Assembly (NCBI RefSeq): GCF_009688965.1
Contig: NZ_AP021875.1
Location: 6,200,001 to 6,264,000, forward strand
Length of the DNA stretch: 64,000 nt
Direction: 5' to 3'
Origin: Desulfosarcina widdelii
Lineage (GTDB): Bacteria > Desulfobacterota > Desulfobacteria > Desulfobacterales > Desulfosarcinaceae
Below, piece after piece: positions 40,940 to 62,190 of this stretch. Both the position numbers and the translations under genes were made by a program. The notes beneath the pieces are model-generated. The model worked only from the letters and a program-made list of their open reading frames with translations, had not been told where the DNA came from and searched no databases. The stretch's first letter is position 1. Every line of letters begins with the position of its first letter.

Positions 40940-41015
40940 GCGGCCCGTATGGTTCCATAATTACGGTTTTGAAATCGAACATGGAAAATATTAACCGCAG
41001 TTGAGAATCGACACC

Positions 41016-43190
41016 ATGAGCGAGACGGTGAGGGCATTGACAGGCAAATGGGATGCGATGGAAATCAGCAGCGATGTGGGCAGGGACAAGCCCGGTCGGT
41101 TCATCAACCGGGAGTTGTCCTGGCTCGAATTCAATCGACGGGTGTACGAAGAGGCCATGAACCCGTCGCACCCGCTGCTCGAACGGCTGCGCTTCCTCTC
41201 CATATCGGCCAGCAATCTGGATGAATTTTTCATGGTCCGCGTGGCCGGCCTCAAAGGCCAGGTGGCTTCCCGCGTCCGGGGGGTCAACCCGGATAAGATG
41301 ACACCGGCCCAGCAGTTGCGCGCCATCGCCGAAAAGGTGTCGGAGCTGGCAGCTGACCAGCACGACTGCTTCGAACAACTGCTGGTGGAAATGAGTAAAA
41401 ATGGCATCCGGGTGGTGGACCCCGAGCAGCTTTCCGAATACGAAAAGAAGTGGCTGGCTACACAGTTCCGGAGAAATATTTTCCCCATATTGAGCCCCAT
41501 TGCCGTGGATCCGGCGCACCCGTTCCCCTTTATCCCCAACCTGGGATTCGGCCTCGTTCTGGAACTTGAAAGCGATACGCAAGAAGAGAATCTCGTAGCC
41601 CTGGTTATACTGCCGGCCCAATTGGATCGCTTCATCCGCCTGCCCGGTAACACCATCCGCTTTATCGCCCTTGAAAAAGTCGTGCTGATGTTTCTCGACC
41701 TGTTGTTCCCGTCCTTCAAGTTGATTTCAAGCGGCATCTTTCGCGTCATCCGGGACAGCGAGATGGAGATCGACGAGGAGGCCGAAGACCTGGTGCGCAC
41801 CTTCGAGAGTGCCCTTAAGCGAAGGCGGCGGGGCAGCGTGGTTCGCCTTACTGTGGACGACGCCATTTCGGACGATCTGCTTTATTTTATTCAGGCGCAG
41901 TTGGACGTTTCCAAGCATGACGTCTTCTGCTTCAAGGGCATGATCGGGCTCGCGGATATCGCCGAACTGGTGATCGACGAACGGCCCGACCTTCTTTTTC
42001 CACCCTACGAAGCGCGATTCCCCGAGCGCATCCGGGACTACGGCGGAGACTGCCTGGCGGCCATCCAGGCCAAGGATATCCTGGTTCACCATCCTTATGA
42101 GAGTTTTGACGTGGTTGTCCAGTTTCTGCGGCAGGCCAGCAAGGACAAGAATGTGGTGGCCATCCGTCAGACCCTCTACCGCACCAGTGAGGACTCGCCC
42201 ATTGTCAATGCACTGGTGGAGGCGGCCGAGGCCGGTAAAAGCGTCACCGCCATGGTCGAACTCAAGGCCCGTTTCGATGAGGAGGCCAACATCGGCATCG
42301 CCAGAAAACTGGAGCGCAGCGGCGCCCAGGTGGTCTTCGGGTTCATGGAATACAAAACCCACGCCAAACTCTCCCTGGTGGTGAGAAGAGAAGGCGACAC
42401 GCTCAAATCCTATGCCCACTTGGGAACCGGCAACTACCATCCCGTGACGGCCAGGATCTACACGGACCTCTCTTATTTTACCTGCGATCCGGATATCTGT
42501 GACGATGTATTGCAGATCTTCAATTTCATGACGGGCTACGCCAAGCCCCCCAACCTGAAAAAAGTGGTGATCTCGCCGCTCAACCTGCGATCCTTCCTCA
42601 TGGCCAGAATCGAAGACGAGATCGAGCATGCCCGAGCCGGTCGGGCGGCGGGCATATGGGTGAAGGTCAACTCGCTGGTCGATTCGGAAATTATCGACGC
42701 CCTCTATCGGGCCTCCCAGGCCGGGGTGATCGTCAAAATCGTGGCCAGGGGAATCTGCAACTTGCGGCCCCAGGTGCCCGGCCTGTCCGACAATATCGAG
42801 GTTAAATCCATTGCGGGCCGATTCCTGGAGCATTCCCGCATCGCCTGTTTTGGCAACGGCCAGGAACTGCCGTCCCCCAAGGCCAAGGTCTACATCTCTT
42901 CCGCCGATTGGATGCCGCGCAACATCGACCGGCGGATCGAATCGCTGGTGGTCATCGACAACCCCACGGTGCATCAACAGGTGCTGAATCAGATCATGGT
43001 GGCGAACCTGCGGGACAACGAACAGAGCTGGACCCTCCAGCCGGAAGGCAGCTACCGGCGCTGCACCGTGGATGGGGAATCGTTCAACGCACACCAGTTT
43101 TTCATGACCAACCCCAGCCTTTCCGGCCGGGGGTCGGCCCTCACTCCCGGTCGCTCCAAACGCAAAAAAAAGTCCAAGGCCAAGAAATGA
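41016..43190 (+). CDS. ppk1: Polyphosphate kinase 1
   Basis: A 724-residue Ppk1 with all four domains. The N-terminal domain starts [19 protein letters not shown]. The two catalytic histidines lie 19 residues apart in [10 protein letters not shown] and [10 protein letters not shown], as in the family. The enzyme polymerises the gamma-phosphate of ATP into inorganic polyphosphate. The ATG at 41016 is preferred over a TTG at 41001. The C-terminus is lysine-rich ([10 protein letters not shown]). Its stop overlaps the start of a SixA-like gene. Confidence 0.96.
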
Positions 43191-43687
43191 AAACTTTGTT
43201 CCTGGTTCGCCATGCCAAATCCAGTTGGAAAGACCCCCGGCTGAGCGATCATCAGCGCCCCTTGAACAAACGCGGCAAAAAAGCCGCTTCGGAAATGGCC
43301 CGGCGGTTGAAACGCCTGGGTGTGAAACCCGATGTCATCGTCAGCAGCGACGCCCGCCGCGCCCTTGATACGGCAGCCGCCATGGCCGAAGGACTGGGTT
43401 TGTCAAAAGAGGTCGTCCGGCCGATGCCCGAACTGTATGGCGCCGCATCGAAGGAGATCCTGGAGATCGTCCTGCGGTTCGACGACAACTGGCAGCAGGT
43501 GATGGTGGTGGGGCACAACCCCGGATTTACCGAACTGGCCAACCGGTTCTATCCCCACTTCATTGCTAACGTTCCCACCGCAGGTGTGGTTGAACTGCGA
43601 TTCGACGCACCGTCCTGGCGGCATATCCGTCGGGACAACCTCGAATTCAGCCGGTTTGATTTTCCGAAAAACAAGGAATCGGGCTGA
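43187..43687 (+). CDS. sixA: SixA-like phosphohistidine phosphatase
   Basis: A 166-residue histidine phosphatase. The catalytic RHG-type motif is [13 protein letters not shown], with further conserved parts [11 protein letters not shown] and [11 protein letters not shown]. In Escherichia coli SixA removes phosphate from histidine phosphotransfer proteins, including NPr. The ATG overlaps the ppk1 stop (ATGA), so the two are translated together; this raises the possibility that it acts on the phosphohistidine intermediate of Ppk1, which is inference only. Confidence 0.88.
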
Positions 43688-44014: not shown

Positions 44015-44103
44015 GGTTGCCCGACCTCTTCTGCCGATCGGTGTTGCCAATCCCCGTGCTTTTTTGCTGAAGGGCACTTACCCACTTAATGAAAGGATTT
44101 TTC

Positions 44104-44496
44104 ATGCCCGCTTCTTTGCTTGAGGTGAAAGGCATCGGCCCGGCCTCCGTAGAACAACTGGAGGCTGCCGGTGTTGCCACCGTTAAACAACTGGCTGTGG
44201 CCACAATCGAACAACTGACGGCCGTTCCCGGTTTTGGCGGCATCCGGGCCAAACAGATTATCGACAATGCCCGGCAATTGACTGCAGCGGTGGCAGCCGC
44301 GGCGCCTGCCACCCAGCCGGCTGTGGGCAAAAAGGAAAAAACCTCTAAAAAGAAAGTCGTGAAAAAGAAAGCAAAGAAGACCAAAGAGAAAAAGGCCAAG
44401 TCCAAAAAGGAGAAGGAAAAAAAGGATAAAAAGGAGAAGAAGGGCAAGAAAAAAGAAGAGAAAAACAAATCGAAAAAGAAAGCCAAGAAGAAGTAA
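44104..44496 (+). CDS. Helix-hairpin-helix protein with lysine-rich tail
   Basis: A 130-residue protein in two parts. Residues 1-65 contain two helix-hairpin-helix units (LEVKGIGPASVEQLEAAG and LTAVPGFGGIRAKQIIDNA), a DNA-binding fold. Residues 75-130 are almost entirely lysine with glutamate and serine, like histone H1 tails or the KKxK tails of bacterial nucleoid proteins. AAAGGA lies 9 bases before the ATG at 44104. The protein probably binds DNA without sequence preference; lysine tails can also bind polyphosphate, and ppk1 is close by. Confidence 0.8.
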   Translation: MPASLLEVKGIGPASVEQLEAAGVATVKQLAVATIEQLTAVPGFGGIRAKQIIDNARQLTAAVAAAAPATQPAVGKKEKTSKKKVVKKKAKKTKEKKAKSKKEKEKKDKKEKKGKKKEEKNKSKKKAKKK

Positions 44497-45529: not shown

Positions 45530-46828
45530 TCAGACCACTAAATTTTTCAAGGTGAGCAACACGCCGGCAGCCACCGCCGATCCGATCACACCGGCAACGT
45601 TTGGCCCCATGGCAAACATCAGCAGCATATTTTCGGGATCTTCTTCAATCCCTACTTTCTGGCTGACCCTTGCTGCCATTGGCACCGCCGATACACCCGC
45701 GGAGCCAATCAACGGGTTGATTTTGTTACTCGAAAACTGATTCATGAGCTTGACCATCAATATCCCGGATGCCGTTCCGATACTGAAGGCAATTATCCCA
45801 AGCAGCAGAATTCCTATCGTTTCCAAACGAATGAAGTTCTCTGCGGACAACTGCGAGCCCACGCCCAGACCAAGGAAAATAGTCACGATATTGATCAGGG
45901 CGTTTTGCGTTGTTTTGGACAGGCGATCGACCACGCCGCATTCGCGCATCAAGTTGCCAAACATGAAAAAGCCGATCAGCGGTGCGGCCGAGGGCAGCAG
46001 CAGTATGCACAACCCAAGGACGATCAGTGGGAAAACGATTTTTTCAACTTTTCCCACGTAACGCAGTTGGTCCATGCGTATTTTGCGCTCGGCCGGCGTG
46101 GTGAGGGCGCGCATGATCGGTGGCTGAATGATGGGAACCAGGGCCATGTAAGAATAAGCTGCCACGGCAATAGCGCCCAAAAGGTTGGGAGAGAGTTGGC
46201 TGGCCAGAAAGATCGCCGTGGGACCGTCGGCGCCGCCGATGATACCGATAGATGCCGCATCGAAAAGATCGAAATGAATTCCGGGCACGATCTCTGTCAG
46301 AATCAACGCACCGATGAGTGTGCTGAAAATGCCGAACTGGGCGGCGGCACCCAGAAGGGCGGTTTTGGGGTTGGCGATCATGGGGCCGAAATCGGTCATA
46401 GCGCCGACGCCCATGAACACGACCAGGGGGAAGACGCCGGTCGTGATGCCGATTTTGTAGATATAGTAGATAATCCCACCTGGTTCGGTGATGCCCGCCA
46501 GGGGGATATTGGCCAGTATGCATCCAAAGCCCATCGGGACCAGCAGCAACGGCTCAAATCCTTTGCGGATGGCTAAAAATAGCATTAGCAAACCCACGCC
46601 GATCATCAACAGGCTGCCGAACCCTTGGCTCCATTGGCCATAAGCCGGGTTAAAAAAGCCATACAGCCCGGTTGATCTGGCAAATTCGGAGATCATGGTT
46701 CCCATGGGAGGCAGCTCTTGATGCAATGGTGCCGCTTGCGCCGTTTGACCTCCTGCAATGGCTGAGACGGGGATCACCAGCAGAAAGGCAACCATTACGA
46801 GACGGACGACCCAATTGATTTTGTGCAT
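45530..46828 (-). CDS. oadB: Sodium-pumping decarboxylase beta subunit
   Basis: A 432-residue integral membrane protein of the OadB/GcdB/MmdB family, which decarboxylates carboxybiotin and exports sodium ions. The key aspartate lies in [20 protein letters not shown] (20 residues). An N-terminal hydrophobic segment resembling a signal peptide (ending SAIAGG) is present. GGGAGAA precedes the ATG at 46828. It lies 23 bases after the alpha-subunit gene and forms one operon with it and the gamma gene. Confidence 0.93.
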
Positions 46829-46851
46829 GCGATTTCTCCCGAACAGGTGTA

Positions 46852-48636
46852 CTAAGCGATGGTCGCCACCAGTTGGTTGGGTTTGACGACATCGTCTTTT
46901 GCCACCTCGATGGACGCCACATTGCCATCGCAAGGGGCTACCACCGGCGTTTCCATTTTCATGGCCTCCAGTAACACCAGCGTGTCGCCGCGGTTTACGC
47001 GATCGCCGACGGCCACGTAAATTTCGCTCACAATCCCCTGCAGTTTGACCTTGACTTCAACCGCATTGTCCGGTTTTGCGGATGGCGCCGGTGAAACCGT
47101 TTTAACTTCTCCGGTAGTTGGCTCTACCGTGACCCGGTAAGCCTTACCATCCACGGTTACCGTGTAGTCGGCCGGTTCGTTGGCTGCAGCCGGCGCCACG
47201 GCTGACGCTTGGTTCTGTGCCGGCACCTCGGTCTCGGTGCCGATCTTGCGGACATTGATGGGCTTTTTGCCTTTCAAAAAATCCAGCCCCTTGTTGCCGC
47301 CCGGCGTCGCCAATGCGCCTACGATAAAGATATTTTCGTCTGTAAGCGGCAGGCCTTCTTTTTCAAGGATTTGCCTGGCTTTTGGAATGCCGGGTTCGAT
47401 TACATCCAGCGGATCGCCCTTGAACACCGGTTTGCCCATCTGTTCTTCGGCAAGCCTGACAATTTCCGGGTCCGGTGCAACGGGTGTGCGACCGAAGTAG
47501 CCCAACACCATTTTACCATAGCCGTCGGTTATTTTTTTCCATGCGCCCTGGGTGACGTTGGCATAGGCCTGTTGAAAATAAAACTGGGAAACGGGGGTGA
47601 CCGAGGTGCCAAACCCGCCACGGGCTACGCATTCGGACATGGCTTCAATAACATCCGGGTAGAGATCAAGCGTTCCGGTATCCCGCATCATCATGGTGTT
47701 CGCCGTCAGTGCGCCGCCCGGCATGGGCGAAAGAATGACTTCAGATGACACTTTCTGGGATTCGGGGGGGAAGAAATAGTCCTGCAGGCAATCCTGGAGC
47801 ACACGGTTAGCGGACATGATTTTAGAAACATCGATATCCAGGGTGTAATCCGTGTCTTTCAAGGCGTGCCACAGCGATAGTATGTCCGGCTGACAGGTTC
47901 CTCCGGAAAGGGGGGAACGGGCCAGGTCTACGCCGTCGCAACCGGCCTCGATGGCTGCCTTATATTGAGTGATGCCAACGCCGGCGGTCTCATGGGTATG
48001 TGCCCATAGAATTGTGTCCTCACCGACGATTGCACGCGCGGCTTTGATCGTATCATAGAACTTTTTGGGATTGGATGTCCCTGACGCATCCTTGAAACAG
48101 ATGGAATCGAACGGCAGCCCCGAATCCAGGATTTTCCTGAGTGTTTTGATGTAAAACTCCGCATCATGCGCTCCCGAGCATCCAGGTGGAAGCTCCATCA
48201 TGCTGATTACCACCTGGTGGTGCAGCCCGGCATTGGTGATACACTGCCCCGAATAAATAAGGTTGCGAATATCATTCAGCGCATCGAAATTACGGATGTG
48301 GGTCATGCCGTGTTTCTTGAACATCTTGGCATGAAGGTCGATCATATCTTTCGGTTGCGCCGAAAGCGCAACCACATTAATGCCCCTGGCCAGGGTCTGA
48401 AGGTGAGTTTCTGGCCCGGCCGCCGCACGGAAGCGGTCCATCATGTCAAAAGCCGACTCGCCGCAATACATAAAGAGCGCTTGAAAACGAGCGCCACCGC
48501 CGGCTTCCATGTGCTTGATCCCTGCATGAACGCCCGCTTCAACGGCAGGAATAAAATCATCGGTCAACGCACGGGCGCCGAATACCGACTGAAATCCATC
48601 ACGCAGTGAGGTGTCCATAAAACGGATTTTTTTCAT
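46852..48636 (-). CDS. oadA: Decarboxylase/carboxyltransferase alpha subunit with biotin domain
   Basis: A 594-residue protein. The carboxyltransferase TIM barrel (residues 1-300) starts [14 protein letters not shown] and has metal histidines in [14 protein letters not shown] conserved carboxylase domain follows, then an alanine/proline linker and a C-terminal biotinyl domain with the biotin lysine in [13 protein letters not shown]. It fits oxaloacetate decarboxylase alpha or pyruvate carboxylase subunit B. With OadB and OadG beside it, sodium-coupled oxaloacetate decarboxylation is most likely. Confidence 0.93.
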
Positions 48637-48685
48637 GATAACTCACTATCTCCCCAAAATATCATAAATGAAAATTCGAACGGTT

Positions 48686-48940
48686 TCACCTGACCCGCAT
48701 GGTGCGAGAGCGATGCGCGGCGATCGCCGCACTGATCACAGCAACCAGCACAGCGTCGTCCGTTTTTACAACCGGTCGTCTCTTTTTCTTCAATGCAGCG
48801 GCTTCAACCTCGGCGAGTTCCGTGGCGCTTTTTGCTGAAAGGAAGCGAAAGGAAAGTTTGACGGCCAGAACCAGAACGATCAGAAACAAGAAGACTACCG
48901 TCATCCCCAAAAGCGTCAGTTTGACTCCGGCAAGAATCAT
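48686..48940 (-). CDS. oadG: Sodium-pumping decarboxylase gamma subunit
   Basis: An 84-residue single-span membrane protein (LTLLGMTVVFLFLIVLVLAV near residues 8-27) with a soluble tail ending in HRSRTMRVR. This is the OadG layout; the gamma subunit holds alpha and beta together. It is the first gene of the minus-strand operon, 49 bases before oadA, and lies downstream of a palindromic candidate operator. Confidence 0.85.
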   Translation of the reverse strand: MILAGVKLTLLGMTVVFLFLIVLVLAVKLSFRFLSAKSATELAEVEAAALKKKRRPVVKTDDAVLVAVISAAIAAHRSRTMRVR

Positions 48941-49498: not shown

Positions 49499-49918
49499 TT
49501 ATCCGGACTGCGGCCGGTTGAGAAAGGCCGGCAGCTTCAAAATCAGATCCCCGAGGTCGGAATGCTTGACCCGCCGGGCGGCCTTGCGGTAGTCGTACCA
49601 GAACCGACGGCGCACGGACCTCTCGGGCCAGACAGCCAGTTGCCGGTTGACCGCCATGACAAAAACGTCCACCTGGCACCTCCCGCCCCATTTCTCGAAT
49701 CCGTAGACGCCGATGGGCGGCGTCATCAGACGGCCTTTGATGCCTGCTTCCTCGTAGGCTTCGTTCACAGCGGTTTCGGTGGCGCTGTAGCCGGGGTCGA
49801 TCAATCCCTTGGGAATGGTGAGATTTTTGCCGCTGCTGGTGGAAATCAGAAGCACCTCGATGGCGTCATCCGAGATTTGATAGGGGATCGCGCCGGCCTG
49901 GTCGAACCGTTTCCTCAT
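49499..49918 (-). CDS. NUDIX hydrolase
   Basis: A 139-residue NUDIX protein of the diphosphoinositol-polyphosphate/Ap4A hydrolase type. The NUDIX box is PKGLIDPGYSATETAVNEAY followed by EEAG; the metal-binding EE pair is present, but the usual first Glu and Arg of the consensus are replaced by Tyr and Asn. Enzymes with this type of box hydrolyse diadenosine polyphosphates or polyphosphate. The ATG at 49918 has GGGAG 9 bases upstream. It ends the five-gene operon with ppx-like and CHAD genes. Confidence 0.85.
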   Translation of the reverse strand: MRKRFDQAGAIPYQISDDAIEVLLISTSSGKNLTIPKGLIDPGYSATETAVNEAYEEAGIKGRLMTPPIGVYGFEKWGGRCQVDVFVMAVNRQLAVWPERSVRRRFWYDYRKAARRVKHSDLGDLILKLPAFLNRPQSG

Positions 49919-49923
49919 GCCGC

Positions 49924-50394
49924 TCAACTCCCGGGAATGCCGTGAACCGCCAGGTGTTTGTTCTTATAGCGCTTGTCCTCGGTTACATCGCGGCCGAACC
50001 AGTCCGGCGGTGCAAAGTCCCCTGCAGCGTCCACGGATGCGAACTCCACCTCCACCATCAGCAATCCCTCCAGGTTCCCCTCGAAACGGTCCAGTTCGGC
50101 AGTATGGCCGCCCACCGGGAAGGTGTAGCGGGTTTTACTCACCCGGCGGCCGACGGTGTAAGGCCAGAGCTGGTCAAACTGATCCGGCGACAACTCGATT
50201 TCGATCTCCGTCCTGGAAAGCCCCTCGCCCATCTTGACAGTCTGATAGCAGGCGGTCTGTTTCTGTCGGACCCGCAGTTCGATGCCCCCGGCAGCGTCGA
50301 TGACGTACCCCTGGCGGATGGTCTTGCCGGTGAGATTTTCAAAATCGGGCGGCAGGCGATCGACGAGAAATTTGCGTTCGATTTCAGTTCCCAT
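49924..50394 (-). CDS. CYTH-domain (triphosphate tunnel) protein
   Basis: A 156-residue CYTH protein with the hallmark EIERKFLV (ExExK) at residues 4-11 and alternating charged beta strands (IELRVRQK, TEIEIELS, AELDRFEGNLEGLLMVEVEF) that line the tunnel. Bacterial members hydrolyse inorganic triphosphate or other triphosphates. It lies 10 bases after the ParA-like gene and 5 bases before the NUDIX gene. Coupling to polyphosphate genes supports tripolyphosphatase activity, a product of exopolyphosphatase digestion. Confidence 0.9.
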   Translation of the reverse strand: MGTEIERKFLVDRLPPDFENLTGKTIRQGYVIDAAGGIELRVRQKQTACYQTVKMGEGLSRTEIEIELSPDQFDQLWPYTVGRRVSKTRYTFPVGGHTAELDRFEGNLEGLLMVEVEFASVDAAGDFAPPDWFGRDVTEDKRYKNKHLAVHGIPGS

Positions 50395-50404
50395 GGTTCG
50401 TTTC

Positions 50405-51151
50405 CTATTTCAGCCGGGTTTTTACATCCCGCCACAGATTGGCAAATGCCTTGGCGCCGGCGCAGCCGGGTCGGTAGTGGACCAGGGGCGCACGGTGGAA
50501 GCCCATCTGTTCCACCTCGGCATTGTAAGGGATAAAAGCATTCATCAGGTTGACCCCGTTGGCCATCATTTCCCGAACCGTGTCGCGGTGCATGCGCTTG
50601 CGGGGTTCCACCATGGAGAGGAAAGGATGCAGTTTGCCCGTATCCAGTCCGCTCTCTTCGAAAAAGGAGAACAGTTTCCGGTAGGTCAGCATGGAAAGAG
50701 TCGTGGGAATCATGGGAAGCAAAATGATGTCCGCCGCCTCGAAGATATTTTCGCTCACCAGGGTGATGTTGGGCGGGCAGTCCAGAAAGATATACGTATA
50801 CTCCCCATCGAAGCGGGACAGCAGGCGCTTCAATCGCCGGCGCGAATGGGAAAAACCGTTCAACTCGATGTCCAGGTTGCGGTAGGAGAGGTCCGCCGGA
50901 AGCAGGTCCAGGTTCGGATAGTCGGTGCCGCGAATGGCCTTGTCGATGCGCTTGCCGCCCTTCAGGAATTTGCGGCTGCTGTGCTTTGGTTTGGGTTGAA
51001 TCCGAAAGTAGAACGTGGATGCCCCCTGGGGGTCCAGGTCGCACAGCAGCGTCGGTGTCTGTTCCCGGGATGCCGCCAGATAGGCCAGGTTGACGCTGGC
51101 GGCTGTCTTACCGACACCGCCCTTGATGCTGTATAAGGCTATGGTTTTCAC
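50405..51151 (-). CDS. ParA/MinD-family positioning ATPase
   Basis: A 248-residue ATPase with the deviant Walker A motif IKGGVGKTAASVNLA, switch I aspartates in LCDLDPQGAST, and Walker B-like YIFLDCPPN. The GTG start has AGGA 8 bases upstream. No parB gene or centromere-like array is adjacent, so it is an orphan ParA like those that position carboxysomes, chemoreceptors or polyhydroxyalkanoate granules. It sits 13 bases after the CHAD gene, and its basic C-terminal part (LWRDVKTRLK) may aid DNA binding. Confidence 0.9.
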   Translation of the reverse strand: MKTIALYSIKGGVGKTAASVNLAYLAASREQTPTLLCDLDPQGASTFYFRIQPKPKHSSRKFLKGGKRIDKAIRGTDYPNLDLLPADLSYRNLDIELNGFSHSRRRLKRLLSRFDGEYTYIFLDCPPNITLVSENIFEAADIILLPMIPTTLSMLTYRKLFSFFEESGLDTGKLHPFLSMVEPRKRMHRDTVREMMANGVNLMNAFIPYNAEVEQMGFHRAPLVHYRPGCAGAKAFANLWRDVKTRLK

Positions 51152-51163
51152 AATGCGTTCCTG

Positions 51164-52690
51164 TCAGGCAAATAGCGATTTAAAACGGTTGCGATTTTCC
51201 GCGTCGTCAAAGCGGGCGAACACGCTCAGAAATTGGGAGCGGACCCGCTGGTGTTCGATTCCCAACCGGGTGACCAGGCCGCCGACGGCCGCCGCCAGAA
51301 GGATTTCCCGGGGTGACTTGGGGGCGATCCCCTGAAGATAGTCGACGAGAAATTCCTGCTGAACGGAAAGGTCGTTGAAGTCGCCCAGATTCTCCTGAAG
51401 CTGTTTGAGCTGCTTGATCAGGATTTTCATCTGATCTTTAGGAAACAGGGAAGTGAAAAATTCGAGCAGGTAACGCAATTTCTTGCAGTCGATGCGCAGT
51501 CGATGCAGCTCTTCATCGGGCGTCGCGGCCGTAATCTTGCGGCCTTTTTTGACGATCCGGCGATAGCGCTTGTGGATCACCGCCCGGGCCAGTTCGCCGA
51601 TGGGGCGGTTGCCTTCAGGCGCGTCGGATTTGGCCGGGCGATCCGATCGGACAAATGCGTCCAGGACGTCCATGTCCGAGGCGAACGCATCGGTGGCCAT
51701 GCGTTTGATCATGCGGGCTTTCGCGTAGCGGCGCTTGCGCGCAAGGGCGCTGAAGAGCTGGGCAATCCCGGGTTTGAGCACGTCGGCGACCATGGCGGTG
51801 TATTCGGCTTTTTTCAGCAGGTAGACGTCCAGGTCACGCAGGTTGCCGGTAATATCGCCCATATTCTTCAGCCGGGTCGTCAGGTCGGCCGTCGTGCGGG
51901 CATCCAGGACGCCTTTCATCTGGCCGAGCAGAGAGCGGGCCCGCCGCACGGATACGCGAAAGTCGTGCAAAAACTCGCTGTCGATATCCTCGCGCACGCC
52001 GGAAAGATTCTGGTGCATCACCGTGACCAGTTGCTCCATGATGCGCCGGACCGCTTCGGTGGCGGGGATGTCGGGCTGCAGTTCGATATCGACTTTGGAG
52101 CTGTTGGTTCCGGGAGAAAATCCGTTTCTCTCCAGCAAGGTCAGCACCGGCGACTGTCGGGCCGGTTCCAGTCCCATCTCCTGCAGACCGGCCACGGCCA
52201 GCTTCGCGGCCTTGGCATAGCCGCGCACCGGTTCGATGCGGCAGTGTTCGACGGCATTCTCCCCGGTGTCGAGGCGATAGGTTTCCAGCACCAGGCGGGC
52301 AACGATTTTCTCGTCGCTGTTGAGCAGCTCGTGCTGGACGCACTGACATTCGACCTTGCCCAGGGAGATCAGGGCCCGCATTTCCATGACCGGCTCGAGC
52401 GCATCGGCCATCTCCGATTCGGTAAAATCCCAGGCAAAGACAATCCGCTTTTCCGATTGCAATACCAGTTTGTCGATGGGTTGGCCGGTGTGGATATCGA
52501 TGGTCCGATATGCATCCGTGGACCTGAGCATCAGCCAGCCCGTTTTGAACAGCCGCCAGTCGAAGGTGTCCATGACTTCGAACGAATCGGCGGATGACGT
52601 TTCGCGGATGCCGGTAAACCGGTCCGCCAACTCCTTGACCATCGCATCGCGGGCGTTTGGTTCAGGCAGGATATATCTGTGATCGGCCAT
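51164..52690 (-). CDS. CHAD-domain protein with degenerate CYTH N-terminus
   Basis: A 508-residue protein. Residues 1-200 resemble a CYTH domain in strand pattern but lack the N-terminal ExExK, so catalytic activity is unlikely. Residues 215-505 form the CHAD domain, an all-helical basic fold with its conserved histidines in FLHDFRVSVRRARSLLGQM and LHRLRIDCKKLRYLLEFF. CHAD domains are known to bind inorganic polyphosphate and to target polyphosphate granules. GAAAGGA lies before the ATG at 52690. It follows the ppx-like gene by 11 bases and precedes the ParA gene. Confidence 0.9.
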   Translation of the reverse strand: MADHRYILPEPNARDAMVKELADRFTGIRETSSADSFEVMDTFDWRLFKTGWLMLRSTDAYRTIDIHTGQPIDKLVLQSEKRIVFAWDFTESEMADALEPVMEMRALISLGKVECQCVQHELLNSDEKIVARLVLETYRLDTGENAVEHCRIEPVRGYAKAAKLAVAGLQEMGLEPARQSPVLTLLERNGFSPGTNSSKVDIELQPDIPATEAVRRIMEQLVTVMHQNLSGVREDIDSEFLHDFRVSVRRARSLLGQMKGVLDARTTADLTTRLKNMGDITGNLRDLDVYLLKKAEYTAMVADVLKPGIAQLFSALARKRRYAKARMIKRMATDAFASDMDVLDAFVRSDRPAKSDAPEGNRPIGELARAVIHKRYRRIVKKGRKITAATPDEELHRLRIDCKKLRYLLEFFTSLFPKDQMKILIKQLKQLQENLGDFNDLSVQQEFLVDYLQGIAPKSPREILLAAAVGGLVTRLGIEHQRVRSQFLSVFARFDDAENRNRFKSLFA

Positions 52691-52701
52691 GAGCGTTCCT
52701 T

Positions 52702-53700
52702 TCACAAGCGGCATGCATCGGGTGCGGACCGGTTTTTCGTAGATCGTGTCCGGCGTTTTCTGGATGGGGAAGCCGGGGATTTTTTCCCGGCTCGGTCCAT
52801 GCGGTTCGTCCGTGATCGGATGTAGTCGCGGTACATGATGCGCACCAGGCCGTCGGCCAGGCCGATCTGCGGCACGGAGATGCCGCGAATCCCACCCCAT
52901 TTCATCACGGACATATAGATTTTCATGGCGGGCATGATGACGTCCACGCGGTCGGGCTTCAGTCCAAGCTTGGTGATGCGGTCATCGAACGAGAAAAAAT
53001 TCAGGTTGGTGCGGACTTTTTTCATTTTGGCCAGGGTAATGGTTTTGTCGTCCGAACATTTGGCCAGCTTAATGATCTTGTTGATGTTGCCGCCGCTGCC
53101 GATGGCGTCGATATTGAAAAAAGAACGCGTATGGCGCTGAATCCATGATTTCATCTCCTTCCAATGATCTTTTTTAACCAGGTCCTCAAGCAATCGAATG
53201 GTGCCGATCTCAAAGGATCTGGAAACCGTTTTGCCGCTGGAGTGGATGGTGATTTCCGTGCTGCCGCCGCCGACGTCGATAAACAGCCAGGCCCGGCCAT
53301 CGACCAGGTGGCTCCAGGGATTGTTCGCAAAGATGATTTTGGCCTCTTCCTTACCGCTGATAATTTGGATGTCCACCCCGGTCTGTTCCCTGATTCGCTT
53401 TTTGATCTTCGATCCGTTGCTGGATTCGCGCATGGCCGAGGTGGCGCAGGCGCGAAAATTCAGGGGGCGGTAGGCGTTGACCAGGGATTTGAACCCCTGA
53501 ATCGTATTGAGCAGTCGCTCGGCGTTGTCCTTGGAGATTTTTTTGTGGATAAAGGCGTCCCTTCCCATGCGGATGGGCATGCGGATCAGGGAGATTTTCC
53601 GGAAATAGGGTCCGTTTTGTGTTTCAAACACTTCGGAAAGCAACAGGCGGACGGCGTTGGATCCGATGTCGATGGCTGCGAAGCGGTTGCTGGTCAACAT
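52702..53700 (-). CDS. ppx: Ppx/GppA-family exopolyphosphatase
   Basis: A 332-residue protein of the actin-like Ppx/GppA family. FAAIDIGSNAVRLLL binds phosphate, the catalytic glutamate is expected near CATSAMRESSNG, and WLFIDVGGGSTEIT is the second phosphate loop. It lacks the C-terminal HD-like domain of long Ppx, so it matches short Ppx proteins. It releases phosphate from the end of polyphosphate or acts on pppGpp. The ATG at 53700 is used; a TTG at 53709 is also open. It is the first gene of the five-gene operon. A very basic tail (SRKRRTRSTKNRS) is unusual. Confidence 0.88.
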   Translation of the reverse strand: MLTSNRFAAIDIGSNAVRLLLSEVFETQNGPYFRKISLIRMPIRMGRDAFIHKKISKDNAERLLNTIQGFKSLVNAYRPLNFRACATSAMRESSNGSKIKKRIREQTGVDIQIISGKEEAKIIFANNPWSHLVDGRAWLFIDVGGGSTEITIHSSGKTVSRSFEIGTIRLLEDLVKKDHWKEMKSWIQRHTRSFFNIDAIGSGGNINKIIKLAKCSDDKTITLAKMKKVRTNLNFFSFDDRITKLGLKPDRVDVIMPAMKIYMSVMKWGGIRGISVPQIGLADGLVRIMYRDYIRSRTNRMDRAGKKSPASPSRKRRTRSTKNRSAPDACRL

Positions 53701-53880: not shown

Positions 53881-54201
53881 TCAGTTTATGGATTGCATGG
53901 CGCGATCCATTGGCTGTCCCGCCAGCACGGACGGATGCAATTCCCGGGCGGAGCCCCAGTGCTGCATGTACAGCCGATAGGCCATGTCCCGCGGACGTCG
54001 GGGGGTAACCGAATACCGCAGATAACCGATCAACCGCTTCAACTGGCGTGAATAGGTTTGGAAATCCGTCTTGCGTTCGGAGCGGTACGCCATGCGGTCG
54101 GCCCGGTTGGCTTCTTCCACGGCCAGGGAGAGCGCTTCCCAGGAGGTTTTATTTTTAACCGTTTCCACAAACTCATCGATTCTGCAGTTTTCGGAAATCA
54201 T
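53881..54201 (-). CDS. Small hypothetical protein under a Pho-like box
   Basis: A 106-residue soluble, basic, probably helical protein (MISENCRIDEFVETVKNKTS, then FQTYSRQLKRLIGYLRYSV). AAAGGAG lies before the ATG at 54201. I do not recognise the family. About 120 bases upstream lies an 11-bp direct repeat oriented toward this gene, which suggests induction by phosphate starvation. It is followed on the same strand, after 180 bases, by the ppx-CHAD-ParA operon, so a shared role in polyphosphate physiology is possible. Confidence 0.6.
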   Translation of the reverse strand: MISENCRIDEFVETVKNKTSWEALSLAVEEANRADRMAYRSERKTDFQTYSRQLKRLIGYLRYSVTPRRPRDMAYRLYMQHWGSARELHPSVLAGQPMDRAMQSIN

Positions 54202-60036: not shown

Positions 60037-62190
60037 CTATTTCCAGAAAAAATAGCGATGATGCCCGCCCCGGCAATGGGGCCAGCGCTTTTTCACGTCA
60101 ATTTTGTAAACGGTCGTGGTGCCGCTGACCTCGTTGGTCACTGCCAGCAGGTTGTCGCCGGTGGGGCTTTTACGGGCAGGAATGAAGGTCAACCCCTCGG
60201 GCGCCAGGTCGCCGGCGGTGCCTGCCTCGGCATCACCGCTGAAATCACGGTTGTTGATGTACTGGACAAATTCAGGGTCGCGGGGATCAGTGATGTCGTA
60301 GACCATGATGCCGCCGACGCGCTCGAGGCCAAGGAACAGGTAGGTCCGGCCGTCGATCTCGCCCAGGGTCAGACCCTCGGGCTCGGGACCCTTGTCGTCG
60401 CTGCGGTTGTCGAAGGAGTCGTTCTCGTCGTTGGTGCTGTTGAAGTTGAAGGGCAGAGCCGCGGCAGTTAGCTGTTCTAGTTGGTCGCCGCTGTCGAATA
60501 CCAGGCGCAGGCCTTTTTTAGTTGGGGTGAAGATGCTGAAAGACCGGGCGCCGAAGGAGTAGCGTTCGTCATAGTCGCCGTCCCCATCCAGGTCGCCCTG
60601 GGCGGTGGTGACGGTCAGGCGCCCTAATACTTCATTTTCCTGAAGCGTCTCGGCATCGGGAAACATGTCCGGATCCAGATCCAGATTTTTCACCCGTTCT
60701 TCTTCGGCAAAGGTATCGTAATCGCGGGCATCGCCCTCATTGGCCGTCACCCGGTACCGGCGGCATCGGCTGCCTTAGGCTGCAATGGCATCCGGCTGAA
60801 ACATGCCGAATACACCGTTATAATTGGCAATGTTGATAACATCGTCCTTGTTTGAGGCGTCGATACCGTTTCCGGTCATGCCGTGGTCCTTGACGCCCAG
60901 GGGCAGGATGTCCACGATGCGCCCGCTGTAAATGTTCAGAACGGCTACGGCATTATTCTCCTGGAGGGTCACCCAGGCTTGGGAAGAGTCATCGGCTACG
61001 GCAATGTACTCTGGCTCCAGGTCCTGAGCCACGGTGGCATTTGGGCCGAAGATGCGCACGCCGTCGGTCACCAGCTTGTCTTTGCATTTGTTGAATTTCT
61101 CGAAGCCGGCGGTTTTGACCCGGGCCCGCCAAACACCGCGGGAGATGTCGATGATGGAAACCGAGCCCTCAGGGTCCACGGTGTAGTCGTCGTTGGGCTC
61201 GCCTTCATTGGCCACCAGGACCTTGCGGCCGTCGGGGGTGAAGGTCAGCATGTCCGGCAGGGCGCCGACCGTGATCTGGTTGAGAAAATGGCCGTCGGTA
61301 TCAAAGAAGGCAACCGTGCCAGAATCCTGCTTGACGTCCGCCTCCACGGCCACGGCTACGATGCGGCCATTCACGGCCACGCTGTTGACTCCGCCTCCGT
61401 ATGGTGACAGGTCGATGGTGAACGCCTTAATCGGTTCGACCGGGTTGGTGATGTCCAGCGCATCGACAGTGTTCTCATTGGCGTTGGAGACGAACAGGCG
61501 TCGGGTTTTGGGATCGAAGGCCACAATTTCGGCGGCGCCTTCGTCAAACACGTTGCTGGCATAGGTGCCCAGCACGCTCAGCTCTACCTTGGGATCGAGG
61601 GAGATTAGGGCGCGGTTGTCCGTGGGAGCAAGGTCGGTCCACAGGGCGTAGAGCATCTGCCCCAGATATTGGGTGGTAGCATCCGTACTGCTCAAAAATC
61701 CGTTGATCAGGTTTAATGTTTCGTCGTCCGCCTGCTCGTCGCCGGCGTAATGGGCGACGAAGGCTTTGGCCACATAGGGCGCCAGGTCGCCGGCAGTAGC
61801 TGCATCCAGCCCGTATTGATAAACCAGCGAATACTGGGCGATACCCAATAGCCCTTCATACAGAAAAGCCTGGGCGTACTCCTGAAAGTCCTCCCCACCG
61901 GTGTAAGATGCTTCGATCTCGGTGATATAGCGGGTTTCCACCTGGGCAGCATTATCGCCATGCAGCGTGACGATGCGATAGGGGCAGGGGGCCGTTACCA
62001 GGCTACCGGTTTCGATATCGTAGAGTTTTGCGTTTTCAAATTCTTTTTCAGTGATGTCGTTGGCGTGGTAGTGTCCGGTGAAGGCCAAATTCAGTCCGGC
62101 GTCGGCCAGGGCTTCGGAGACGTTTTCCCAGTCGTCGATGACATATTCGGGGAATGATAGAGGATCGGCCTGGCCGGTGTAGTGCTCCAC
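60037..62190 (-). pseudogene. Broken metallophosphoesterase / choice-of-anchor I protein
   Basis: Two frames on one strand form one protein. From 62190 about 70 residues keep only the end of a calcineurin-like phosphoesterase (LNLAFTGHYHANDITEKEF, with the GHxH metal motif), then a beta-propeller of the choice-of-anchor I type (AFDPKTRRLFVSNANENTV, TFTPDGRKVLVANEGEPND). A TAA at 60775 interrupts it right after FGMFQPDAIAA, and the propeller resumes in the same phase at 60750 ([19 protein letters not shown]). The N-terminal catalytic half is missing; a TGA precedes in frame. Truncation plus an internal stop make a functional product unlikely. Confidence 0.8.

Follow-up and report, generated by a model that had tools for sequence, protein, structure and literature searches.

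A conserved CHAD-ParA gene pair in Desulfosarcina widdelii and distant bacteria suggests a ParA-type positioning system for polyphosphate bodies

The subject of this study is a five-gene operon of Desulfosarcina widdelii, located at 49499-53700 on the minus strand of a 64,000-nucleotide stretch of its genome (contig NZ_AP021875.1, positions 6,200,001 to 6,264,000; hereafter the window, whose numbering is used throughout). The genes encode, in order, a Ppx/GppA-family phosphatase, a CHAD protein, a ParA-type ATPase, a CYTH protein and a NUDIX hydrolase. We found that the conserved core of this arrangement is the CHAD-ParA pair, and that the Ppx, CYTH and NUDIX genes vary. The recurrence of the pair in distant groups suggests a machine that would place or share out stores of polyphosphate (polyP), and we consider it probable (roughly 0.6) that a ParA-type system encoded by the operon positions polyP bodies as its cargo. 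Cargo positioning is the best fit because a motor stands beside a polymer-binding neighbour, with no ParB near.

Results

The host genome is a single contig of 7.3 Mb. The genes of the operon are separated by 11, 12, 10 and 5 bases, and all five products exceeded their own cut-offs in a Pfam profile search:

52702..53700, minus strand: Ppx/GppA-family phosphatase, 332 amino acids (PF02541, 104.8 bits against a cut-off of 27)
51164..52690, minus strand: CHAD protein, 508 amino acids, with a TTM-fold domain (~1-190) and a CHAD domain (~200-505) (PF05235, 195.7 bits against a cut-off of 25.6)
50405..51151, minus strand: ParA-type ATPase, 248 amino acids, GTG start, KGGVGKT (AAA_31, 110.3 bits; structure matches; tree)
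49924..50394, minus strand: CYTH/TTM protein, 156 amino acids, probable inorganic triphosphatase (PF01928 above cut-off; ExExK)
49499..49918, minus strand: NUDIX hydrolase, 139 amino acids, with a variant Nudix box (PF00293 above cut-off)

The original prediction, made from the letters alone, had described five same-strand genes with these gaps, an intact KGGVGKT in ParA and an ExExK motif in the CYTH protein. All of these were recovered, KGGVGKT at residues 10-16 and ExExK by alignment.

CHAD and ParA genes were found side by side in each set of genomes compared. Among 60 related genomes, D. widdelii included (close ParA at E <1e-50), all 9 that carry ParA have CHAD immediately upstream of it, on the same strand; in one genome of this set (G006) ParA reads in pieces. 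Four ParA-free relatives (G018, G023, G028, G029) had a CHAD gene above cut-off, and the stretches on either side of it yielded no ParA. A set of 395 Desulfobacterota genomes (clade ParA at E 1e-50) yielded 23 clade ParA genes in 22 genomes, 19 of them with CHAD directly upstream; the exceptions include G387, whose contig starts 109 bases before ParA, and G301, with CHAD elsewhere in the genome. In 369 gammaproteobacterial genomes (ParA at E 1e-40) CHAD was directly upstream of 42 of 62 ParA genes, and of 40 of the 45 that scored above 300 bits. A contig scan, for which the best 80 of 83 loci were taken, mostly from Chlorobiaceae, gave CHAD adjoining ParA in 67 of 80 loci (63 of 75 among those with at least 1.5 kb upstream). 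The check on related genomes that the original prediction had suggested thus came out as conservation of ParA beside CHAD, and an adjacency confined to this genome is ruled out because the pair recurs in many others.

The distance from the CHAD stop to the ParA start was -4 in 60 of 136 records and -1 in 14 of 136, and is +12 in the window; these are counts of records and not of genomes, because some loci were fetched twice. Association was also seen at the level of whole genomes. CHAD was present in 50 of the 56 gammaproteobacterial genomes with a ParA above 200 bits, as compared with 71 of 313 without (the Fisher values for this comparison and for PPK proximity are rough, kinship of the genomes being ignored); one of the 50, G622, has CHAD only as a broken fragment. 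Nine of the 13 contig-scan loci without CHAD beside ParA come from genomes that hold CHAD elsewhere, namely seven Chlorobiaceae, one Methylococcaceae and one gammaproteobacterium. The seven Chlorobiaceae have a two-domain CHAD, beside PPK in six of the seven (short locus), and the gammaproteobacterium has another ParA (L134) that is CHAD-linked.

Within 3 kb of ParA in the 80 contig-scan loci, our own profiles found Ppx in 2, CYTH in 3 and NUDIX in 3, and these genes were near ParA more often in Desulfobacterota. The idea that the whole five-gene set is conserved as a unit was therefore rejected, and a place for Ppx, CYTH and NUDIX in one system with the pair was not supported in the form first proposed: they lie outside the conserved core and differ between loci.

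ParA has the marks of the ParA/MinD family, namely a deviant Walker A motif with the signature lysine, a Walker B aspartate and a ParA fold. In an alignment of 31 clade members, K10, K15, D38, D40 and D124 were invariant in 31 of 31, as was the whole stretch from K10 to K15; position 16 is S in one. The structural model has a predicted local distance difference test score (pLDDT) of 91.7, and its best matches among solved structures were Soj/ParA, followed by plasmid ParA, archaeal MinD and McdA. The top NCBIfam profile was the ParA partition ATPase (69.9 bits, under its cut-off of 180). In an alignment with Thermus Soj, whose arginines of 'DGR' and 'RNVR' we take to be DNA-binding residues, the 'DGR' arginine is matched by R184 of ParA, which most rows of the clade retain.

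A quick maximum-likelihood tree (LG+G4, 105 rows) separated 86 rows, the window protein included, from 19 paralogues of related genomes with a support of 100 in the SH-like approximate likelihood ratio test (SH-aLRT), and 68 of the 86 rows are CHAD-linked. In this tree 47 of 102 inner branches have support below 80, and long branches were flagged for L109 and L228. Link labels were taken from maps of open reading frames (ORFs), with L215, L217 and L218 labelled by hand; L127, a wrongly labelled duplicate of L161, was omitted, and rows more than 85% identical that shared one label were thinned. The CHAD-linked rows come from seven phyla: Desulfobacterota, Chlorobiota, Pseudomonadota, Gemmatimonadota, Fidelibacterota, Chloroflexota and Spirochaetota. 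Three of these rest on a single metagenome-assembled genome (MAG) each, Gemmatimonadota (L044, whose CHAD is read as three fragments), Fidelibacterota (L063) and Spirochaetota (L109, on a long branch), and Chloroflexota rests on two (L097, L099). As judged from this tree, ParA is a member of a distinct, largely CHAD-linked ParA clade.

A genome-wide search for ParB_N (PF02195) gave four matches, the nearest ~65 kb from ParA and none within 60 kb. The orphan status that the original prediction had assigned to ParA is borne out, and a role as a component of a ParABS system was rejected on the same ground. Two other ParA genes of the host genome adjoin ParB_N genes.

The CHAD protein was modelled at pLDDT 91.9, and its best structure matches were 6qva, 6qv7 and 3e0s, with TTM proteins among the further ones. 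Against 6qva, the Chlorobium tepidum CHAD protein with polyP, the alignment spanned 309 columns with 40% identical residues (TMt 0.95). That CHAD is a polyP-binding domain, as the original prediction had stated, is thus supported in the sense that it is a domain type crystallised with polyP (6QVA). The N-terminal part matched TTM proteins, including full-length ygiF and thiamine triphosphatase (E ~1e-4). ExExK was found within the first ~40 residues of this domain in 0 of 85 linked records with a full N-domain, and in 31 of 31 records of the separate CYTH protein (these are records, duplicates included, some having been fetched twice). We infer that the N-domain is a TTM fold that has lost its catalytic motif, and so a probable pseudoenzyme.

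In Desulfobacterota the TTM domain was present in 19 of 19 ParA-linked CHAD proteins; none of the 24 CHADs without the domain was linked, and five with it were unlinked. This tally favours linked CHADs, because the profile was built mainly from them. G304 was dropped as below cut-off, and two pieces in G359 were counted as one gene. Five ParA-linked CHADs of gammaproteobacteria have open frames of 313-344 amino acids, too short for a TTM domain, and further short linked CHADs (G761, G669) reflect a contig edge or unexplained shortness. The five gammaproteobacterial proteins weaken the TTM domain as an obligatory ParA-facing part. Two loci, L120 (G023) and L149 (G307), hold Ppx, a two-domain CHAD and PPK in a cluster without ParA, and are natural controls for a CHAD free of the ATPase.

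Polyphosphate kinases also accompany ParA. PPK1 was found in 19 of 30 ParA-bearing genomes versus 3 of 30 ParA-free relatives, and the three (G018, G023, G029) all carry CHAD. PPK1 or PPK2 was found in 28 of 30 versus 4 of 30, the fourth ParA-free carrier, G034, having a weak PPK2 match. When the count is confined to relatives, a kinase was found in 9 of 9 genomes with ParA and in 4 of 30 without (30 of the 51 ParA-free genomes covered); this is the fairer comparison because the ParA-free genomes are near relatives and most of the ParA-bearing ones come from the wider phylum. In G031, G045, G274, G436, G412 and G394, PPK2 matches, often paired, lie ~0.7-5 kb from ParA, and PPK1 was not found there; the two in G394 are 4.4 and 5.3 kb away.

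The remaining enzymes of the operon could be placed to different depths. The original prediction had named an exopolyphosphatase-family enzyme; PF02541 membership was confirmed and GKEEA and DVGGGSTE stretches align with relatives, but the exo_poly_only cut-off was not reached (TIGR03706, 197.7 bits against 307), and the protein is named here at the level of the Ppx/GppA family. Of the proteins with solved structures, NE1496 is the nearest to the CYTH protein, which matched 3TYP (E 2.6e-42) and 2FBL (NE1496; E 1.1e-41). It keeps ExExK and, in the alignment with 2FBL, has Tyr and Lys at the dyad positions (numbering by our own count). Passages of PMC3440374 describe NE1496 as a specific inorganic triphosphatase and name a NeuTTM-type Tyr-28/Lys-52 dyad, and by this resemblance the CYTH gene product is probably an inorganic triphosphatase. 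The Nudix box of the NUDIX protein reads GLIDPGYSATETAVNEAYEEAGI, in which Y replaces the first E of the textbook box and N replaces its R. CYTH and NUDIX are fused in one protein directly after ParA in two loci (L063:8714-9628 and L109:3846-4739), which suggests that both act on one substrate path.

The flanks of the operon hold further genes that touch on its subject:

41001..43190, plus strand: PPK1, polyphosphate kinase, listed with a TTG start (four PP_kinase domains)
43187..43687, plus strand: SixA-like histidine phosphatase, whose gene starts inside the last bases of PPK1 (frame, start and RHAKSSW stretch by eye)
44089..44496, plus strand: helix-hairpin-helix (HhH) protein with a lysine-rich tail, a candidate accessory part (PF14520, 52.6 bits)
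53881..54201, minus strand: small ORF 5' of Ppx (in three relatives, L111, L114 and L118, a homologue precedes Ppx)

The PPK1 gene, in which ATG codons are also present at 41016 and 41058, is the sole PF02503 match of the genome and ends ~7 kb before the ParA gene in window coordinates. The product of 43187..43687 is presumably SixA-like, judging by eye from its RHAKSSW stretch. For the small ORF the only family match in the Pfam search was ORF6C, below threshold. Promoter and terminator scans were uninformative (5 and 9 sites versus shuffle means of 2.9 and 8.1). Beside the operon, a sodium-pumping decarboxylase-like cluster was recognised by eye at 45530-48940 (minus strand), comprising a carboxylase with a biotin domain, a beta-subunit-like membrane protein and a small gamma-like protein. 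A predicted tRNA-Thr(GGT) at 60401-60495 (plus strand) spans 95 bases, more than is usual for a threonine tRNA.

The HhH protein, whose gene lies downstream of PPK1, has 35 K in its last 60 residues. Seven homologues (L081, L113, L159, L165, L167, L168, L213) have 44-52% K+R after the domain; five were found with the window protein and used to build a profile, which then found L081 and L213. Their genes adjoin ParA in L081, L165, L167 and L168, lie between PPK and CHAD in L113, and follow CYTH in L159 and L213. Two weaker homologues are in L115 and L116. Strong matches (E <1e-14) occurred in three of the 60 relatives, all with CHAD-ParA; weaker short matches were found in G045 (with CHAD-ParA) and G046 (without it, and with an internal stop), and the remaining matches in relatives are frames of ~380-620 amino acids. 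As a core part of the system this protein is weakened as a candidate, since 1 of the 80 contig-scan loci has it within 3 kb of ParA.

Discussion

In the model that we favour, CHAD would coat polyP bodies and act as an adaptor, and ATP-bound ParA dimers would bind the nucleoid. Contact with CHAD on a polyP body would cause ParA to hydrolyse ATP and release, and the body would follow the resulting ParA gradient, such that bodies would be spaced and held apart, and each daughter cell would receive a share. The TTM-fold domain that precedes CHAD may be the best candidate for the ParA-facing part, if not an obligatory one. The nearby PPK1 would make the polymer, and the Ppx, CYTH and NUDIX proteins of the operon would be turnover enzymes for polyP trimming, triphosphate clean-up and an unassigned NUDIX substrate, respectively.

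A number of observations weigh against this model. Some genomes have ParA and yielded no CHAD in our searches: G394 and G095 in Desulfobacterota, 6 of the 56 gammaproteobacterial genomes with a ParA above 200 bits (G460 among them), and 4 of the 13 contig-scan genomes with unlinked ParA (G457, G460, G461 and G462; a Desulfocapsa MAG and three Salinisphaera). Conversely, five Desulfobacterota CHADs with the N-domain, as well as that of G023, occur in genomes without a clade ParA, and G095 and G233 carry a clade ParA with neither PPK1 nor PPK2 found. No ParA-CHAD fusion was seen among the measured loci. The CHAD N-terminus is on average not basic: in 85 linked records the net charge of the first 30 residues averages -0.8 (range -5 to 8), and the model gives residues 1-10 a pLDDT of 73 and places a strand at 5-7; the known cargo partners of ParA/MinD ATPases, as presented in passages of PMC10241942, have a basic, disordered N-terminus. 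This last point is not decisive because hydrophobic residues are also implicated for McdB, according to sections of a 2025 preprint (PMC12204374). The change of the Soj 'RNVR' arginines and the matches of ParA to BcsQ profiles, both described below, also count against the model. Depletion of CHAD proteins in Ralstonia gave no apparent phenotype, as reported in parts of PMC6537752, which also describe the physiological roles of CHAD proteins as still to be defined. In the literature that we searched we found no experiments on members of this ParA clade.

One alternative, which we regard as unlikely though likelier than the other rivals, assigns ParA a regulatory or assembly role in the polyP machinery: like BcsQ in cellulose secretion, the ATPase would switch or assemble a CHAD-PPK complex and position nothing. 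ParA matches the BcsQ profile PF06564 (28.8 against a cut-off of 21.3), its second NCBIfam match is the BcsQ profile TIGR03371 (60.6, under the cut-off of 157.85), and BcsQ structures are also among the matches to its model. The Soj segment 'IPRNVRL' aligns to 'IPYNAEV' in ParA, which puts Y209 and E212 in place of both arginines of 'RNVR', and in this respect a presumed DNA-binding arginine of Soj is not kept. A PPK1 or PPK2 match lies within 10 kb of 12 of the 23 Desulfobacterota ParA genes, and in G622, the genome with the broken CHAD, PPK directly precedes ParA. Nevertheless, the top NCBIfam profile is the partition ATPase, even if below cut-off, and the best structures are Soj/ParA; moreover, the steady neighbour is the granule-binding CHAD and not the kinase, PPK being within 3 kb of ParA in 12 of the 80 contig-scan loci.

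The other alternatives appear to us very improbable. That the pair sets polyP bodies at a pole or membrane, in the manner of MinD, and not on the nucleoid would agree with the shift of granules to the poles that CHAD over-expression can cause in Ralstonia (work cited in passages of PMC6537752), an observation that we also count in favour of our own model, and with the archaeal MinD structures among the better matches. ParA/Soj structures nonetheless rank ahead of MinD, and no conserved C-terminal extension that could serve as a membrane anchor was seen by eye in the 31-row alignment. A reversed direction, in which ParA would organise or segregate chromosomal DNA with the aid of polyP and CHAD, is just as improbable: the ATPase is of ParA type and some loci hold the HhH lysine-tail protein, but the two other ParA genes of the genome adjoin ParB_N genes, and the presence of ParA tracks CHAD and PPK. 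Finally, that the genes merely share an operon without joint function has a similarly slight chance, since against the differing Ppx, CYTH and NUDIX genes and the clade members with other neighbours (chemoreceptor, penicillin amidase, TldD, FtsX and other unrelated genes near ParA loci without an adjacent CHAD) stand a pairing kept in seven phyla amid differing surroundings, frequent stop-start overlap and co-occurrence even when unlinked.

The positioning model can be carried further, to a dedicated partition machine for polyP bodies in at least seven phyla, with a private ParA clade, a TTM-pseudoenzyme-CHAD adaptor and, in some lineages, an HhH-lysine tie between polymer and DNA. We hold this fuller version tentatively, at somewhat less than even odds.

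Among known systems, McdA-McdB is alike in having a ParA-type ATPase and a cargo partner without ParB, and Cyanothece McdA structures are among the matches to our model; the window system differs in its cargo, presumably polyP, and in having a TTM-CHAD protein as neighbour. The McdA of Synechococcus elongatus is without the signature lysine (passages of PMC6328274), whereas ParA of the window keeps it. ParABS is closest in fold and sequence, Walker motifs included, but no ParB_N gene lies within 60 kb and one of the two Soj arginines to which we ascribe a DNA role is changed. The CHAD phosins, such as CtCHAD of Chlorobium tepidum (Q8KE09), share the same domain, at 40% identity to 6QVA, and in other green sulphur bacteria CHADs are ParA-linked. 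ParA is not mentioned in the first part of the Results or in the Discussion of PMC6537752, and a term search of it for 'para' returned 'parameters'. Placement of storage granules on the nucleoid is described, in passages of PMC13052382 and PMC9239181, for AlgP (polyP) and for PhaM, PhaF and PhaH (PHB), AlgP being histone-H1-like and PhaH having an HhH domain; the HhH-lysine protein of the window resembles AlgP and PhaH in build only.

The gene grouping itself has a precedent. In parts of a 2024 study of Acidithiobacillus (PMC10892726), parA, CHAD and ppk form a highly conserved group within a folD-ppk-parA-CHAD cluster; ParA is there a plasmid partition protein, and the main text is without the strings 'segregat' and 'nucleoid'. 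We liken that cluster to ours by its published gene grouping. The passages of a 2025 review (PMC13052382) treat a DNA tether for polyP granules (AlgP) and cell-cycle dependence, with no ParA motor, and in the literature that we searched, mostly outside subscription journals, we met no proposal of a ParA for polyP. The adjacency of parA and CHAD is already in print for Acidithiobacillus, and what we add is the tie between ParA and polyP positioning, which we put forward as a proposal.

If the proposal is correct, the polyP partition machine would to our knowledge be the first ParA-type system for a storage polymer, and it would give CHAD proteins a cellular role. It bears on the number, spacing and inheritance of polyP granules. 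With a conserved two-gene module, one half of which belongs to a family crystallised with polyP, the question of granule inheritance and that of the role of CHAD could both be addressed by a single deletion.

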